Positions 362 to 8,098 of a stretch of DNA of 42,456 nucleotides are shown here, in pieces; positions within the stretch are counted from its first letter, which is position 1; each line of letters begins with the position of its first letter. The DNA lies in NCBI GenBank assembly GCA_011170325.1, contig DUEX01000003.1, positions 16,661 through 59,116 on the forward strand. The letters run 5' to 3'. Source of the stretch: Dehalococcoidia bacterium (lineage in GTDB: Bacteria > Chloroflexota > Dehalococcoidia > GIF9 > UBA5629). Made by a program: the position numbers and the translations under genes. The notes under the pieces were generated by a model. The model had not been told where the DNA came from. It searched no databases and worked only from the letters and a program-made list of their open reading frames with translations.

Positions 362-901
362 TTATCTTCTGGTTTCAACCAGGCTTTTCTTCATTATCTC
401 TAATTTGTTATGAATGCTGCCATCAATAAGGCTATCGTTAATTCTAGCGACAACGCCACCTAGAATATTAGGGTCGACTTGAAGGCTAACGCTGACTTTC
501 TTTCCGACTATTGCTTCAAGATGGTGGCTGAGCCTTTCCTTATCCGCGTCATCAAGCGGAATGGCAGTAATTACTTCGGCATGTCTAATTCCGTAGTAAT
601 CGTCTAGTAAATGTTCATATTCATCAGCAATCTGGCCAGCGCTTTTTAGCCTACCTTTGGCGATGAGAAGGTAAGCAAGATTCAAAGCCAACGGATTTAT
701 TTTACCTAATCTTTCTTGCGCAAGCTTTGCTTTCAGTTCAAATGGTAATTTAGGATTTTCCACCAAGGCTGCAAATTCGAGGTCTTGCATTAACTCAGCA
801 ATTTCTCTCAGGTCAGGCCGCCATTCTTGTAGCTCATTCTTTTCTTGAGCTATCCTGAAAGCAGCCTGAGCATAACGCTTAGCAAAAGTTGTTGTTGGCA
901 T
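362..901 (-). CDS. atpH: ATP synthase F1 subunit delta
   Basis: The delta subunit (OSCP type) links the peripheral stalk to the top of the alpha/beta hexamer. The 179-residue length is normal. The N-terminus PTTTFAKRYAQAAFRIA is the typical helical start, and the C-terminal segment VDPNILGGVVARINDSLIDGS matches the conserved family signature. It lies 14 bases after atpF and 24 bases before atpA, so the three are surely cotranscribed. Nothing looks unusual. Confidence 0.96.
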   Translation of the reverse strand: MPTTTFAKRYAQAAFRIAQEKNELQEWRPDLREIAELMQDLEFAALVENPKLPFELKAKLAQERLGKINPLALNLAYLLIAKGRLKSAGQIADEYEHLLDDYYGIRHAEVITAIPLDDADKERLSHHLEAIVGKKVSVSLQVDPNILGGVVARINDSLIDGSIHNKLEIMKKSLVETRR

Positions 902-915
902 TGACCGTTAACCTT

Positions 916-1416
916 CTAACTTTGCTTAAATGTGGTGTTCTCTTCTAGCACTTCACCAATAAGCTTGCGATGTTTTTCTCTGTCTAACGTTTCGTTAATC
1001 ACCTTTTCTGCAGCCAAAATGGCTATATCTACGAATTCTTGGCGTAGCTCCTCAATGGTTTTGTCCCGGTCTCGCTGTATTTCGGTGCGTGCCTTGGCCA
1101 TCAAGGACTCAGCTTCTTGGCGTGCTCCTTCCTTGGCTTCTTCTTTTAGCCTTTCTCCTATTTGAGTTGCCTGAGCTATTATGGCTTGCCCCTCTTTGCG
1201 GGCCGTTTCCAAATGGGCTTTAATTTGCTCCTCGCTGTGTGCCGCCTGTTCTTTGATCTGTTCGGCTTGTTCCATACTGTCTTTTATCTTAGCCTGCCTC
1301 TCATCGAGCATCTTAAGCACCGGTTTATATAGGAATATGCCCAGTAAAGTAAATAGAATGACGAAGTTTATGACAAATGCCAATAACAACGGTAGATTGA
1401 TTCCAATACCTTCCAT
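916..1416 (-). CDS. atpF: ATP synthase Fo subunit b
   Basis: Subunit b forms the membrane-anchored peripheral stalk. It has one N-terminal membrane helix (about residues 8-30, LLLAFVINFVILFTLLGIFL) followed by a long charged coiled coil rich in Glu, Gln, Lys and Ala, as expected for a dimerising stator. The length of 166 residues is normal. There is one b gene and no b' gene in the visible operon. A one-helix 43-codon ORF lies directly upstream between atpE and atpF, so this gene is separated from atpE by about 190 bases. Confidence 0.96.
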   Translation of the reverse strand: MEGIGINLPLLLAFVINFVILFTLLGIFLYKPVLKMLDERQAKIKDSMEQAEQIKEQAAHSEEQIKAHLETARKEGQAIIAQATQIGERLKEEAKEGARQEAESLMAKARTEIQRDRDKTIEELRQEFVDIAILAAEKVINETLDREKHRKLIGEVLEENTTFKQS

Positions 1417-1448: not shown

Positions 1449-1580
1449 TCAGGCTGCTGTCGATAATATAAATAGACCAATAATAAAGGCGGTGACAATA
1501 AGCCCGGCGAATACAATACCGCCAATTATAATTGCCCCGACAATGAAGCTTAGTGAAGTTGGTAGGTTACCATTTTCCAT
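1449..1580 (-). CDS. Small single-helix membrane protein inside the ATP synthase operon
   Basis: This 43-codon ORF is below the ORF-track cutoff. It starts at ATG 1580 and stops at TGA 1449. The start is preceded by ATAGGAAGGAATGATCG, a strong Shine-Dalgarno with normal spacing. The product begins MENGNLPTSLSFIVG and then is almost wholly hydrophobic with Gly and Ala (IIIGGIVFAGLIVTAFIIGL), which would form one membrane helix with a short N-terminal tail. It sits between atpE and atpF in the same orientation. I do not recognise a family. It could be an accessory Fo peptide or a remnant of a second c- or b-type subunit; the clean frame and Shine-Dalgarno favour a real gene. Confidence 0.72.
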   Translation of the reverse strand: MENGNLPTSLSFIVGAIIIGGIVFAGLIVTAFIIGLFILSTAA

Positions 1581-1605: not shown

Positions 1606-1836
<231 letters not shown>

Positions 1837-1850
1837 TTACCTTCCTCCTT

Positions 1851-2813
1851 TCAAGTCGTTTGTTCTTCTTCAGCATGAGGAGCTAAAGCGATAATGCCAA
1901 ATACTAGTGTTAATCCAGCAAAGATGAGAGCCTGGATAAAACCGATGAGCAGTTCTAACCCGTAGAAGGGGATGGTGGCTATTAGTGGAACTAAGAAGCA
2001 GACAACCAGTAGCAGTATTTCACCAGCAGTCATGTTGCCAAAGAGACGGAAAGTGAAGCTAACAATTCGTATAAGGTGGCTGAATACCTCTAGCGTGCCT
2101 ACAAACAGGTTGATGAATCCGAGCATGAGCCCGCTGATAGCAGGGCGAATCTTTCCTTTAGCCAAGCTTGTGATGCCATCACGCAATTGACCAAAGTTAA
2201 AAAAGGTATTGAGGTAACGGAGAAAGCCTAATGAGCGTAGCCCCCAATATTCAACGAAGATGAAGGACATTAAGGCAATAGAGAGTGGTAGATTGATATC
2301 AGTATTTGCTGCTCGGAATAGCGGTACAAAAGTACCATCATTCTCGGCAATGCCTATGGTGCCATAAAAAGGCAAAAGAGCTAGGTAAGCATTGATTAAA
2401 ACATAAAGAAAGATAGTGGCCACTACTGGGAAAAGGGTGCGAGCCTGTTTCTTGCCGGCTGCACCTTCAACAAAGTTTAGCAGCATCTCTACGACCATCT
2501 CAGCTAAACCTTGGAGACGTCCTGGGATAAGCTTCATCTTGCGAGTACAGGCGTAAAACAAGGTGACTAATACAATTATAGTAAGCCAGGAAGCAATAAG
2601 GGTATTGGTGATGGTAAAGCCAGCAATATGGAATATACCTTCGGGAGGGAGTTCGACGTGAGGTTTGGGAAGCTGAAGGATGCTAGGCGCTTCAATGTTT
2701 AGCAGAGCTGAGCCCAATGGTCCGCTGATTAAGCCGATAACGAGGAGAGTGAGAAGGAAAATAGAAGATAAGATTAGAATTTTGGTGGAGCAACCACAGC
2801 CCATTCTTTGCAT
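1851..2813 (-). CDS. atpB: ATP synthase Fo subunit a
   Basis: Subunit a provides the proton half-channels against the c-ring. It is a 320-residue polytopic protein. The conserved segment FTFRLFGNMTAGEILL contains the essential arginine, and the C-terminal helices (FIQALIFAGLTLVFGIIAL) are typical. The N-terminus (MQRMGCGCSTKILIL) is longer than in compact a subunits and adds a first hydrophobic helix. The start lies 5 bases after the stop of the AtpI-like ORF, which supports translational coupling. A second Met at residue 4 is an alternative start. Confidence 0.96.
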   Translation of the reverse strand: MQRMGCGCSTKILILSSIFLLTLLVIGLISGPLGSALLNIEAPSILQLPKPHVELPPEGIFHIAGFTITNTLIASWLTIIVLVTLFYACTRKMKLIPGRLQGLAEMVVEMLLNFVEGAAGKKQARTLFPVVATIFLYVLINAYLALLPFYGTIGIAENDGTFVPLFRAANTDINLPLSIALMSFIFVEYWGLRSLGFLRYLNTFFNFGQLRDGITSLAKGKIRPAISGLMLGFINLFVGTLEVFSHLIRIVSFTFRLFGNMTAGEILLLVVCFLVPLIATIPFYGLELLIGFIQALIFAGLTLVFGIIALAPHAEEEQTT

Positions 2814-2818
2814 GGAGT

Positions 2819-3271
2819 TTATTTTTTATCCTTTTGTGTCTCTTTTTGCTCAGTGTAGAATCGGTGAAGCATACGATAAAGACCATAAAAGGCAGCCACT
2901 GTTCCCACGCCGAATCCAACAAGGGTAAATAGGGGGTGGCTATCAAATTTATCTGGGCGGTCAAGCCAATAGCCAATCCCAGTTGGTATTACTATGCTTA
3001 AAGCTACATACCAACCAACATTAAAGAGAAACCAGAGAGGCTTTACCCATTCTCTTGATGTTGGTTTTTTGGTCTTAATCTGTTGTACCGTGTCGTGTGT
3101 TTTCTTTTGACTCAAGGTTGTGTACCAATTCGGTAATCCGTCTTCTTTAAGAATTACGGCTTTCGGAGCGAGACCATTTTTAAAACCGATAAACAGGTAC
3201 TTTCTGTCTTCCCACTCACTTCTGACTGAAAAGCTTAGCGAAATCTCCATCGAAGTCATTAAGGAAACCAT
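2819..3271 (-). CDS. AtpI/AtpZ-like F1Fo ATP synthase accessory membrane protein
   Basis: The C-terminal 75 residues form two membrane helices (WFLFNVGWYVALSIVIPTGIG and LFTLVGFGVGTVAAFYGLY) joined by a short loop with YWLDR. This is the architecture of the AtpI/AtpZ family encoded at the head of atp operons and linked to c-ring assembly or divalent-cation transport. The start is uncertain. The ATG at 3271 overlaps the preceding zinc-ribbon gene by 56 bases and has no clear Shine-Dalgarno. A TTG at 3115 would give a 98-residue protein, closer to the family length. The long N-terminal segment looks non-conserved. Confidence 0.72.
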   Translation of the reverse strand: MVSLMTSMEISLSFSVRSEWEDRKYLFIGFKNGLAPKAVILKEDGLPNWYTTLSQKKTHDTVQQIKTKKPTSREWVKPLWFLFNVGWYVALSIVIPTGIGYWLDRPDKFDSHPLFTLVGFGVGTVAAFYGLYRMLHRFYTEQKETQKDKK

Positions 3272-3559: not shown

Positions 3560-4111
3560 TTAAGATTTGTGCTTACCAAGGTCATCCAAGTCAAGGGTAT
3601 TAATAAAATCATAGAAAGCTGACAGTTTTTTCAATTCTTGTTCATCAACCTTGCCCTTGGCTCCTGGTTTATCAGCATCTTTATCTTGAGGGACAGGTTT
3701 TCCTGTTTCTCGGTCAAGTATAATGCCAGCTTTATCCAAAACTGATTCCTCAACATATATTGGTGCTGTTACTCTTACTGCTAAGGCAATCGCATCACTG
3801 GGACGGGAGTCAATCTCTACTTGCTTGCTATCAACATTAAGGATGATTTTAGCGTAGAAGGTATCATTGTGAAGCTCGTTGACTACAATACGATTAACTG
3901 AAGCCCCCAAAGTGATAATTACAGAATCTAGCAAGTCATGAGTCAAAGGGCGGGCTATAGCCACATTTTGCAGCTTTACTGATATAGCATCTGCCTCTGC
4001 TGGACCGATCCAGATAGGTAAGTAACGGTCTGACTCTTTCTCTTTTAAGATCACCACATGCTGATAATTCATCAGGCTTACTCGAATGCTGTCAATCGTC
4101 ATCTCTATCAT
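3560..4111 (-). CDS. Bifunctional nuclease family protein (DUF151)
   Basis: The N-terminal 130 residues match the DUF151/BFN fold. Diagnostic stretches are YLPIWIGPAEADAI near residue 30 and VEIDSRPSDAIALAVR near residue 100, both hallmark motifs. Plant and bacterial members have been reported to cleave RNA and DNA or to act in stress response; the exact role here is unknown. The C-terminal 50 residues are a charged, low-complexity tail (DKDADKPGAKGKVDEQ). GGGGAGGGACAATC precedes the ATG. This is the first gene of the unit that continues into the ATP synthase genes. Confidence 0.88.
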   Translation of the reverse strand: MIEMTIDSIRVSLMNYQHVVILKEKESDRYLPIWIGPAEADAISVKLQNVAIARPLTHDLLDSVIITLGASVNRIVVNELHNDTFYAKIILNVDSKQVEIDSRPSDAIALAVRVTAPIYVEESVLDKAGIILDRETGKPVPQDKDADKPGAKGKVDEQELKKLSAFYDFINTLDLDDLGKHKS

Positions 4112-4726: not shown

Positions 4727-4756
4727 TTGCAACTTTTACCTAATTTGTGTTATATT
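4727..4756 (+). promoter_or_regulatory. Promoter of the Fur-family gene
   Basis: TTGCAA and TATATT are separated by 18 bases. The expected transcription start is near 4763, only a few bases before ATG 4766, so the mRNA would be almost leaderless. This rules against the ORF-track TTG start at 4727, which is the -35 box itself. A small inverted repeat TTGCG-TT-CGCAA lies just upstream at 4711-4722 and could be an operator. Confidence 0.55.
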
Positions 4757-4765
4757 TTGTTTGGA

Positions 4766-5176
4766 ATGAGTTGTGGTCAGGCACTTCAGGAAAAGGGGTA
4801 TCGGTTAACACCACAGCGGATGATGGTGGTTGAGGCTCTGCATGGTGCTGATAAGCATGTTAGCGCTGAGGAGATTTATGCTCAGGTTCGGGCTAAGTAT
4901 CCTTATGCTAATATTTCCACGATTTATCGAACGCTGGAATTATTAAAGGATCTTGGTCTAGTTAGCGAGATTGCTTTAGGAGATGGGCGTGTCCGTTATC
5001 ATCCGGCAGAAAAGGGGCATCACCATCATCTTGTGTGTCAGAAGTGCGGCAAGATAACTGATTTGCCTGAGTCTATGTTGTCTCCTTTAGAAGAAAGGTT
5101 ACTTCATGATTACCAGTTCAAGGCTGATTTGAGACATCTGGCTATTTTTGGTCTATGTGCTGAGTGTCACAAGTAG
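4766..5176 (+). CDS. Fur-family metal-responsive transcriptional regulator
   Basis: A 136-residue repressor of the Fur superfamily. The N-terminal winged helix begins GYRLTPQRMMVVEAL and includes HVSAEEIYAQVR and ISTIYRTLELL, the recognition helix. The histidine-rich segment GHHHHLVCQKCGK and the C-terminal CAECHK provide the regulatory metal ligands and the two CxxC pairs of the structural zinc site. I cannot assign it to Fur, Zur, PerR or Nur from sequence alone. Its position before a cobalt/nickel-type ECF transporter suggests that it controls metal uptake. I place the start at ATG 4766, because the longer track ORF begins inside the promoter. Confidence 0.88.
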   Translation: MSCGQALQEKGYRLTPQRMMVVEALHGADKHVSAEEIYAQVRAKYPYANISTIYRTLELLKDLGLVSEIALGDGRVRYHPAEKGHHHHLVCQKCGKITDLPESMLSPLEERLLHDYQFKADLRHLAIFGLCAECHK

Positions 5177-5250
5177 GTTAGAGGAGCTATGCATGATGGT
5201 TTAGTAAAGAAATATTCTAGCAGCTTTTATTTTTAGTCAGTAATGCAGTT

Positions 5251-5262
5251 AGTTGCAGTTGC
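5251..5262 (+). promoter_or_regulatory. Tandem AGTTGC half-sites upstream of cbiM
   Basis: Two adjacent copies of AGTTGC lie about 40 bases before cbiM, extended by a partial CAGTTAG just upstream. The reverse complement, GCAACT, also occurs at 4729-4734 inside the fur promoter, next to a CGCAAC at 4718. They may be binding sites for the neighbouring Fur-family protein. The sequence does not resemble the AT-rich Fur, Per or Zur boxes I know, so this is only a suggestion. Confidence 0.25.
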
Positions 5263-5299
5263 GCTTTGTTGATGAAAATTTGGTTTAAAGGAGGGTTTG

Positions 5300-5938
5300 A
5301 TGCATATTCCTGATGGTTTTGTTAGTACACCGGTAGCAGCGGTTGGTTGTGTTGTCGCTGCTGGTTGTATAGCCTATGCTGTCAAGGCAACGAATAAAAA
5401 GATGGGGGAGAGACAAATCCCGCTAATGGGAGTATTGGCTGCCTTTATTTTTGCTGCTCAGATGCTTAATTTCCCTATAGCTGGCGGCACATCGGGGCAT
5501 CTTATTGGGGCTACTTTGGCTGCTATCTTGCTAGGCCCCTGGGCGGGAGTGCTGATAATGACCTGTGTGCTGGGCGTGCAGTGCCTAGTTTTTCAGGATG
5601 GAGGGCTTTTCGCCTTAGGGGCTAATATCTTTAATATGGGTATTGTCGCTAGCTTTATCGGTTATTATGTTTATCGAGGTGGTGCTTCGCTTTTCGGTGG
5701 CCGGAGGCCAGGAAAACTGGTCGGCGGGGGTTTAGCTGCTTGGTCCTCAGTGTTGATAGCGTCTATTGCCTGTGCCTTTGAGCTAGGAGTCTCAGGCACT
5801 GTGCCACTGGGCGTCGCTTTGCCAGCGATGGTAGGTGTTCATGCCCTAATTGGTATCGGTGAGGGTTTGATAACTGCAGCAGTGCTCGGCTTAGTGCTGG
5901 CTACTAGAGCTGACCTGCTGGAATTGCAAAAGGCTTAA
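5300..5938 (+). CDS. cbiM: Cobalt/nickel ECF transporter substrate-binding subunit CbiM/NikM
   Basis: This is the S-component that binds Co2+ or Ni2+ and carries it across the membrane. The mature start MHIPDG puts a His at position 2, and GGTSGHLIG places another at residue 67. In characterised NikM proteins the metal is held by the N-terminal amine, His2 and His67. This decides the start: ATG 5300, not the ORF-track TTG at 5297, which would add a residue and destroy the site. AAAGGAGGG precedes it. About six to seven membrane helices follow. The sequence does not tell cobalt from nickel. Confidence 0.93.
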   Translation: MHIPDGFVSTPVAAVGCVVAAGCIAYAVKATNKKMGERQIPLMGVLAAFIFAAQMLNFPIAGGTSGHLIGATLAAILLGPWAGVLIMTCVLGVQCLVFQDGGLFALGANIFNMGIVASFIGYYVYRGGASLFGGRRPGKLVGGGLAAWSSVLIASIACAFELGVSGTVPLGVALPAMVGVHALIGIGEGLITAAVLGLVLATRADLLELQKA

Positions 5939-5949
5939 AGGAGGTCAGA

Positions 5950-6240
5950 TTGGAAATGAAGTTTAAATGGTGGCATGGCGCTTTGACCTTAGCCTTATTT
6001 TTGGCTATATTATCTCCTTTGGCATCCTCATCTCCCGATGGCCTGGAGAGGGTGGCTGAGGATAAAGGGTTTATTGAGACAGCCCTTGATGCTCCCTATG
6101 AAATTATTCCCGACTATGTGATGCCAGGGGTAGTGAGTGAGGCTGTGGCAACAATTCTGGCGGGGATAGTAGGTGCTCTTATACTTTTTGGTATTGGTTA
6201 TGGATTAGCGCGGCTATTGAAGGCAAAAGGTGAAGCATAG
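5950..6240 (+). CDS. PDGLE-domain CbiN-like component of the metal ECF transporter
   Basis: A 96-residue protein with an N-terminal membrane helix (GALTLALFLAILSPLAS), the extracytoplasmic motif SSPDGLERVAEDKGF and a C-terminal helix (ATILAGIVGALILFGIGYGL). PDGLE proteins replace or extend CbiN in many cobalt/nickel transporters and are needed with CbiM for uptake. AAAGGAGGTCAGA lies just upstream. The Shine-Dalgarno spacing favours TTG 5950, though ATG 5956 is in frame. Its stop overlaps the cbiQ start by 11 bases, so expression is coupled. Confidence 0.88.
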   Translation: MEMKFKWWHGALTLALFLAILSPLASSSPDGLERVAEDKGFIETALDAPYEIIPDYVMPGVVSEAVATILAGIVGALILFGIGYGLARLLKAKGEA

Positions 6241-7000
6241 CTTTATTGACCAATATAGTGGCTTAGACAGCCTTATCCATAGGCTTGACCCGCGAACCAA
6301 GTTTATTACTAGCCTGGCTTTCATCGTGGCTGTGGTGCTGACGCCGGCCAGCAATTGGCGAGTTTTTGCCTTTTACTTCTGTCTTATTGCTGTCTTACTC
6401 GTCATTTCCAAGTTGCCACCTCTTTATGTTTTGAAGAGGTCTTTAGTAATTTTTCCCTTTGTTTTGATGATTGCCATTTTCATTCCCTTTTTCAAGCAGG
6501 GTGAGGTAGCTGGTAGCTATAACATCTGGTTATGGCAGGTCTCGGTAACTTACAGTGGCTTGCTCATTCTGGCAAACGTAGTGGTGAAAGCCTGGCTTTG
6601 TATTTTAAGTCTGATTTTGCTGTCATCGGCAACGAAGCTTGCTGACCTGTTAAAAGGCTTGAAGCAATTGGGTGTACCACGGGTGATAATATTGATTCTT
6701 TCTTTTATGTACCGCTATGTTTTTGTTCTGGTAGACGAGGTGATGCGAATGCGGCAGGCACGGGATAGCCGCAACTTTGGTGGTAATCGGTTATATCAGT
6801 TAAGAACCATCGGCAATATGGTTGGCACTTTGTTTATTCGGAGTTATGAGCGGGGTGAAAGGGTTTATGTTGCCATGTTATCGCGGGGTTTTGATGGTGA
6901 GGTTCGCACATTGCACAAATTGAGTTTTAGACAAGTTGACGCCTATTTCAGCACAACTTTTTGTCTTATACTCATTTTACCTGGTATTGTTTGGTGGTAG
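6230..7000 (+). CDS. cbiQ: Cobalt/nickel ECF transporter membrane subunit CbiQ
   Basis: CbiQ is the T-component that couples the ATPase to CbiM. The 256-residue protein opens with the family signature SGLDSLIHRLDPRTKF, has about five hydrophobic segments, and contains RMRQARDSRNFGG and a second ARG-like helix (AMLSRGFDG) in the cytoplasmic coupling region. The GTG start at 6230 lies inside the 3' end of the PDGLE gene. cbiO follows 12 bases later. Confidence 0.94.
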   Translation: MKHSFIDQYSGLDSLIHRLDPRTKFITSLAFIVAVVLTPASNWRVFAFYFCLIAVLLVISKLPPLYVLKRSLVIFPFVLMIAIFIPFFKQGEVAGSYNIWLWQVSVTYSGLLILANVVVKAWLCILSLILLSSATKLADLLKGLKQLGVPRVIILILSFMYRYVFVLVDEVMRMRQARDSRNFGGNRLYQLRTIGNMVGTLFIRSYERGERVYVAMLSRGFDGEVRTLHKLSFRQVDAYFSTTFCLILILPGIVWW

Positions 7001-7011
7001 CTCAAGAGATT

Positions 7012-7728
7012 ATGGATAAAGCTGTAGATATTGAAGGTCTTTCCTTTACCTATCCAGATGGACATCAGGGACTCAAGAATATCGATTTGGTTGTCTATCG
7101 TGGTGAGGCGGTAGCGGTGATTGGTCCCAATGGTGCTGGTAAGTCAACGCTTTTACTTCATCTTAATGGAATCCTCCGTGGTAATAGTGTAGTGAAAGTT
7201 TTCGGGTTGCCTGTTGAAGAAAAAAACTTGAAGGAAATAAGAAGAAAAGTCGGTCTGATATTTCAGGATCCAGAAGACCAGCTTTTCTCCCTGACTGTAT
7301 TTGATGATGTTGCCTTTGGTCCTATAAATATGGGCTATTCTGAGCCAGAAGTGAAGCAGCGTGTGACTCAAGCTCTGGAGTGGGTGGGGATGAATGGCTA
7401 TGAGCAGCGCTCGCCCCACCATCTCAGTATTGGTGAGAAGAAACGGATTGCCATCGCTACTGTCCTGTCCCTAAATCCGGAGCTTTTGGTTCTTGATGAA
7501 CCTACCAGTAATCTTGACCCGAGGAGCAAGTGGTCTTTATTCGAACTGTTAAGGCAACTTCCGGTGACTAAAATCGTTGCTGCTCATGACTTGGAGTTGG
7601 TAAGGGCTCTATGCCAGCGAACTGTGGTGATGGATGAAGGAAAGATAGTGGCTGGCGGTAGCACTGAAAGCATTTTGAGTGATGTTCCCTTACTCAGGGC
7701 TCACGGTCTGGCACCATGCCTAGATTGA
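7012..7728 (+). CDS. cbiO: Cobalt/nickel ECF transporter ATP-binding subunit CbiO
   Basis: An ABC ATPase that powers the transporter. It has Walker [10 protein letters not shown] near residue 37, the Q-loop [11 protein letters not shown] typical of ECF ATPases, signature LSIGEKKR, Walker [14 protein letters not shown] and the switch histidine in VAAHDLEL. The start is placed at ATG 7012; the ORF-track TTG start at 6961 would overlap cbiQ by 40 bases with non-conserved residues. The 3' end ([13 protein letters not shown]) is repeated in decayed form at 8105-8170. With 238 residues it is slightly short for the family but complete. Confidence 0.94.
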
Positions 7729-7782
7729 GCTTCGTTGGGTTCCTTCACTTTGTTTGGGCCAGGTCTCGCAAAGGTGGTTCTT

Positions 7783-7810
7783 GTCATCGCAAGCGAAGCG
7801 GAGCAATCTG
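7783..7810 (+). repeat. Degenerate dispersed-repeat motif
   Basis: The string GTCATCGCAAGCGAAGCGGAG followed by CAATCTG resembles the short intergenic repeat with core TCATTGCGAGCGAAGCGAAGCAATCT that I recall from many bacterial genomes. It lies in the 160-base spacer between cbiO and the next small gene. Only one clear copy is in the window; a fragmentary CTTCGCTCCGCTCAGG occurs near 36585. The identification is from memory. Confidence 0.4.
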
Positions 7811-7888
7811 ATTGAAAATCTGGAGTTTATGTGGTTAACTGTAGAATCCTTGGATTGAGGTTGAAAGTCATGTGAGGGAGTATATGCG

Positions 7889-8098
7889 ATGGACGAAGCT
7901 GAGAAGGAGAAACTTAGAATATTATTAGGCTATTGGATTGAACATAATAGAGAGCACGGTGAGGAATTCAAGGAGTGGGCGGAGAAATCCAGGGACCTTG
8001 GGGAGGCTATGGTTTGCGAAGATTTGTTGGATGCAGTTCAACATATGGACAAAGCTAATGAATTCCTGCTGAGAGCCTTGAGGAGACTAAGAGGATAG
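7889..8098 (+). CDS. Small helical protein linked to the metal transporter
   Basis: A 69-residue charged, helical protein (LRILLGYWIEHNREHGEEF, then EWAEKSRDLGEAM and a C-terminal LLRALRRL). It has three histidines and many acidic residues but no membrane helix. GAGGGAGTATATGCG precedes the ATG, a fair ribosome-binding site. I recall similar WIEHNxEHxxxF domains near metal or cofactor genes in archaea and Chloroflexota, but not a proven function. A role in handling the imported metal is an inference from position. It is bracketed by cbiO and a decayed copy of the cbiO end. Confidence 0.72.
   Translation: MDEAEKEKLRILLGYWIEHNREHGEEFKEWAEKSRDLGEAMVCEDLLDAVQHMDKANEFLLRALRRLRG

Follow-up and report, generated by a model that had tools for sequence, protein, structure and literature searches.

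In the Dehalococcoidia bacterium sequence analysed here (the window, 42,456 nt of contig DUEX01000003.1, assembly GCA_011170325.1), our computational analysis showed that a short ORF located directly after the subunit c gene of the ATP synthase operon encodes a conserved single-helix membrane protein under purifying selection. Based on sequence comparisons, we consider the chances about evenly balanced that this is truly an accessory peptide of the F-type ATP synthase, specific to certain lineages and with subunit c as its most likely partner. The features of the window on which the analysis is based are the following:

1449..1580 (-), 43-aa single-helix membrane peptide, identified from its ORF, homologues in the same slot, selection and a predicted helix
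1589..1594 (-), purine-rich Shine-Dalgarno-like box GGAAGG, 8 nt before the peptide ATG, read from the sequence
1606..1836 (-), atpE, subunit c, 76 aa (PF00137, 4e-14)
916..1416 (-), atpF, subunit b, 166 aa (PF00430, 3e-29; TIGR01144 above cut-off)
1851..2813 (-), atpB, subunit a, 320 aa (PF00119, 7e-36)
2819..3271 (-), AtpZ-like protein with two transmembrane helices at the operon head, longest ORF reading (PF09527, 3e-12, above cut-off)
362..901 (-), atpH, subunit delta, 179 aa (PF00213, 1e-45)

The initial annotation had described a 43-codon ORF with a Shine-Dalgarno sequence between atpE and atpF, and we confirmed this description: the ORF starts with ATG and ends with TGA, the GGAAGG box is readable upstream, and both neighbours are identified by their Pfam models. 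The translated peptide is MENGNLPTSLSFIVGAIIIGGIVFAGLIVTAFIIGLFILSTAA, and the window's genome contains one copy of it. The ORF begins 25 nt after the atpE stop codon, and purine-rich boxes are located upstream of the ATG in nearly all the homologues. First-order Markov sequences with the length and composition of the gap contain an ATG-initiated ORF of 43 aa or more in 3.4% of cases; thus, the ORF alone is only mildly surprising, and its significance comes from homology and selection. Promoter- and terminator-like matches within the atpE-atpF gap were no commoner than in shuffled sequences. Elsewhere in the window, we observed a bifunctional nuclease (3560-4111) and, at 4727-7728, a Fur-family regulator with a cobalt or nickel uptake cluster (CbiM-CbiN-like-CbiQ-ABC ATPase) after it.

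The homologues are 34-46 aa long and begin with a shared M-x-x-x-G-[LI]-P motif, after which comes a single helix. Among 54 homologues, all share Met1, 95% have Pro7, and 87% have a small residue at position 5, while the remaining positions are hydrophobic with frequent Gly and Ala; the first eight residues contain on average ~1.4 acidic and 0.06 basic residues. AlphaFold, supplied with the family alignment, predicted a single helix spanning residues 8-42 and reaching the C-terminus, with a mean pLDDT of 92. In a helix-face analysis, the small residues showed no significant moment at 90-110 degrees; a stronger periodicity of these residues near 80 degrees was spotted post hoc and carries no weight in our argument. 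In close pairs of homologues, the pooled pS was 0.51 and the pooled pN 0.11, and dN/dS ranged from 0.02 to 0.42 in 18 of 19 pairs, the remaining pair being dS-saturated. Codon conservation in relatives, which the initial annotation had proposed as a check, was therefore borne out, with neither frameshifts nor neutral drift among the homologues. A Pfam and NCBIfam scan of 38 family members gave no family match, and the family profile matched no PDB chain at E<=10. Together with the confidently predicted helix, the conserved position and the purifying selection, these results uphold the earlier view of an untracked one-helix membrane protein of the atp operon.

Selection at the amino-acid level bears on two readings of the ORF. 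If it were a translated spacer or leader that sets the c : b expression ratio, the peptide itself being functionless, its location after the high-copy c gene and ahead of b would be accounted for, as would the 97-110 nt spacer that the peptide-less clades of the window's family retain; nevertheless, conservation goes beyond an open frame to the amino-acid sequence, the G-[LI]-P motif and the helix, and gaps of 20-50 nt suffice in many operons. Alternatively, the ORF could be a decayed atpF fragment, i.e., a duplicated b membrane helix, given its similar start motif and a size near that of this helix. Homology to the b membrane helix was rejected, however, since the hhalign score of 11.7 did not rise above those of shuffled sequences (mean 10.8, maximum 17), and the ORF is complete and under purifying selection. 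In view of the amino-acid selection and the failed b profile comparison, the spacer reading is very improbable, and the decayed-b reading is scarcely credible.

To describe the distribution of the family, we used a position-blind profile search of 393 Dehalococcoidia genomes, in which the wider profile identified 46 credible carriers. A 47th match (G212) was attributed to chance, as it sits within a 428-residue frame; the weak matches in G064 and G048, which lack a start codon and are not near any atp genes, were likewise discarded, and the only match outside the class, in a phylum-wide sample, lies within a 322-residue frame and also looks like chance. Of the 30 top-ranking loci in the first position-blind search, all but one were located between c and b, the sole exception (L069) being at a contig end and adjoining formate dehydrogenase genes. 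The additional matches of the wider profile fell inside the surveyed atpE-atpF gaps, and nearly every peptide copy that could be placed sits exactly between atpE and atpF.

The initial annotation had suggested looking for the same ORF in related genomes. In a direct survey of 141 atpE-atpF gaps, a sample biased to relatives with a similar subunit c, the peptide was present in 52 gaps (152-310 nt long) and absent from 89. For several of the peptide-less gaps, an N-terminal extension of subunit b accounts for their great length; in L099 and L172, this extension is signal- or lipobox-like. On the tree of c and b, peptide presence requires 10 changes versus ~42 with shuffled labels, carriers fall in one 109-row part, and genera g3, g8, g12, g15 and g16 of the window's family represent one nested loss. 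The expectation of a same-slot ORF thus held for the 52 loci, while in some relatives the whole ORF has been lost clade by clade, so that the claim can extend only to a factor that is lineage-specific and non-core. These losses are real and repeated, and the ATP synthase operon works without the peptide; because the operon is kept entire, the peptide is dispensable over evolution and is not a core subunit, which also counts against the accessory role that we favour, as any such role must be dispensable. Co-occurrence with AtpZ was rejected as the cause of peptide presence, since AtpZ occurs both at loci that have the peptide and at most of those that lack it.

Other observations concern the same slot in non-carriers. 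In the non-carrier genera of the window's family (L012, L017-L030), the atpE-atpF gap measures 97-110 nt, and most of these gaps contain a shared motif, TTTGAGGTAAAT, before atpF, with possible hairpins. In another family of the order (G030), a different single-helix ORF of 36 aa, MIEILQLIWLIVGVLIIVAIGASLGLALFFWLTKER, occupies the slot (L027, 1753-1860, plus strand) and has no family match. Additionally, in the nearly complete genomes G035, G036 and G037 of genus g21, no F-type c or b gene was detected, while G034, of the same genus, carries a peptide-bearing atp operon; horizontal transfer or a different ATPase perhaps explains this contrast.

The peptide was compared with known small proteins of the ATP synthase. 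AtpI/UncI is, like the peptide, a small membrane protein of the atp operon and has been proposed as a c-ring assembly helper, but the peptide is about one third of its size. AtpI/UncI is located at the operon head before atpB, whereas the peptide follows atpE, has one helix and coexists with a separate AtpZ-like gene. Models for AtpI/AtpZ (PF09527, TIGR02230-type) gave no match at E<=1 in the 38 family members scanned with Pfam and NCBIfam, and in the surveyed carriers the peptide lies between atpE and atpF, not at the head of the operon, where AtpI/AtpZ is found. AtpZ-like proteins (PF09527) are also accessory membrane proteins of the atp operon, and one adjoins a peptide homologue in genome G008; unlike the peptide, they have two transmembrane helices and their own Pfam model and occur in carriers and non-carriers. 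The second b gene of photosynthetic bacteria, b', occupies the same slot between c and b, but b' has a long soluble stalk, which the peptide (34-46 aa in all) does not. Mitochondrial small subunits such as ATP8 are, like the peptide, single helices of tens of residues in the membrane sector; nevertheless, the family profile retrieved no such chain from the PDB at the threshold given above. As the peptide differs from AtpI/UncI in sequence and position and is neither b nor b', we assign it to a new family of atp-operon accessory membrane proteins. In Acetobacterium woodii, the unusual c-ring depends on AtpI (PMC8904574). The cyanobacterial AtpTheta (atpT), which prevents ATP hydrolysis (PMC9241938), is likewise small, lineage-specific and active on ATP synthase, a likeness by description only. 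We found no description of the ORF in the open-access literature; one survey marks unnamed 'hypothetical intervening ORFs' at some atp loci, without identification in its text (PMC4154653).

Apart from its position, the peptide is linked to subunit c by a second locus found in two genomes of one family, G223 and G243:

L174, 10985-11419 (+), orphan second c gene (c2) followed by its own peptide homologue (pep2); counterpart at L175

This cassette has neither a nor b beside it, and c2 lies ~4.5 kb from the c gene of the main operon. Between the two genomes, c2 shows 23 synonymous versus 1 nonsynonymous differences and pep2 17.5 versus 1.5; both genes are constrained. Their co-duplication may be passive linkage. 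L174 also encodes an AtpB (subunit a) of 456 aa (6594-7964, minus strand) with an in-frame insert between membrane helices, which matches Biotin_lipoyl (PF00364, 1.7e-10).

Covariation between peptide presence and columns of c and b was evaluated against presence/absence traits simulated on the tree. The c column that differed most was c11 in TM1, which is Ala in 93% of the loci without the peptide and in 25% of those with it; a difference of this size was equalled in 3.5% of the simulations. In contrast, the largest difference in b was equalled in 75% and is unremarkable. At a column-wise p<=0.005, 13 columns were recovered, namely 7 in c and 6 in b, of which 3 fall in the membrane helix and 3 in the stalk; c11, c14, c24, b15, b28 and b31 are among the covarying columns. 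An independent-pairs test on well-supported branches comprised only 6 pairs, with no significant column, and with so few pairs the covariation support is modest. Taken together, the position, the c2-pep2 cassette and the covariation suggest a tie of the peptide to the Fo membrane sector, closest to subunit c.

The three columns in the b membrane helix are relevant to the possibility that the peptide is a permanent, stator-side subunit of Fo, which would pack onto a and b and stabilise the stator or the a-c interface, as mitochondrial single-helix subunits do. This proposal would also agree with the slot just before atpF, the place of the second b gene in photosynthetic bacteria, and with the resemblance of the N-terminal G-[LI]-P to the INLP start of b. 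We nevertheless judge it unlikely, since the hhalign comparison with the b N-terminus stays inside the shuffled range and the c2-pep2 cassette lacks b and a nearby. A plug of the c-ring, one of the roles raised in the initial annotation, would place one peptide in the ring lumen in substitution of some lipid; a small, purely hydrophobic and c-linked peptide would suit this role, and the top covarying column lies in TM1 of c, the inner helix of c-rings. Some of the covarying c columns lie in TM2, however, the peptide has been lost repeatedly with no obvious change in c length, and the lumens of known rings contain phospholipids (PMC6896225), so that we regard a plug as decidedly improbable. A c-linked peptide involved in assembly or ring stabilisation is favoured over both the plug and an a/b-side subunit.

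The family also extends beyond the atp locus. In three genomes (G105, G264 and G008), homologues adjoin genes of a NuoE/NuoF/FdhA-type NAD-formate dehydrogenase:

L178 (G105), same strand as nuoE, homologue upstream of nuoE (E ~1e-9)
L179, 6-113 (G264), homologue divergent from nuoE (E ~6e-13)
L176, 4145-4258 (G008), homologue directly following an AtpZ-like gene and upstream of nuoE/fdhA (E 0.002)

By these E-values, assignment to the family is strong for G105 and G264 and weak for G008. In G008, the AtpZ-like gene and the peptide form a pair outside the atp operon, and a transposase-like ORF may lie between the peptide and nuoE/fdhA. The peptide is absent from the atp locus of G264; in G105 and G008, its status at the atp locus is unreadable owing to a contig end and a run of N. 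These copies may indicate that the family serves more than one membrane complex, or that the gene has moved; either way, they weaken exclusivity to ATP synthase and speak against the explanation that we prefer. They would be expected, together with the position of the G008 copy after an AtpZ-like gene, if the peptide were a small modulator or anchor of general use in the membrane, serving other complexes too and found mostly in the atp operon by chance. This is improbable, as the other matches in the 393 genomes, with few exceptions, map to the atp locus or accompany c2 in the two cassettes.

We propose that the peptide, made immediately after subunit c, would insert into the membrane with its short N-terminus outside, an orientation based on its acidic residues and lack of positive charge, and with almost no C-terminal tail. 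The small residues of its helix would pack against Fo helices, most likely those of subunit c, and the peptide would aid c insertion and ring formation or remain bound and stabilise Fo. Since no charged or polar residue is conserved within the helix, the peptide itself is not expected to carry protons. The initial annotation had also suggested an Fo accessory peptide or an assembly factor, and this is the class of explanation best supported by the sequence evidence. A more specific version, in which a single-helix subunit dedicated to the c-ring was acquired once in one class, lost repeatedly and travels with a second c as a two-gene rotor cassette, is conceivable but doubtful.

The usual picture of the bacterial ATP synthase comprises eight subunits and one or two optional assembly proteins. 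If the proposed role is true, an additional conserved part would be present in the Fo sector of a large, uncultured class of anaerobes, and the natural gains and losses of the peptide would provide ready comparisons for the requirements of c-ring assembly or stability. Additionally, genes of ~40 codons in textbook operons can escape any family model.
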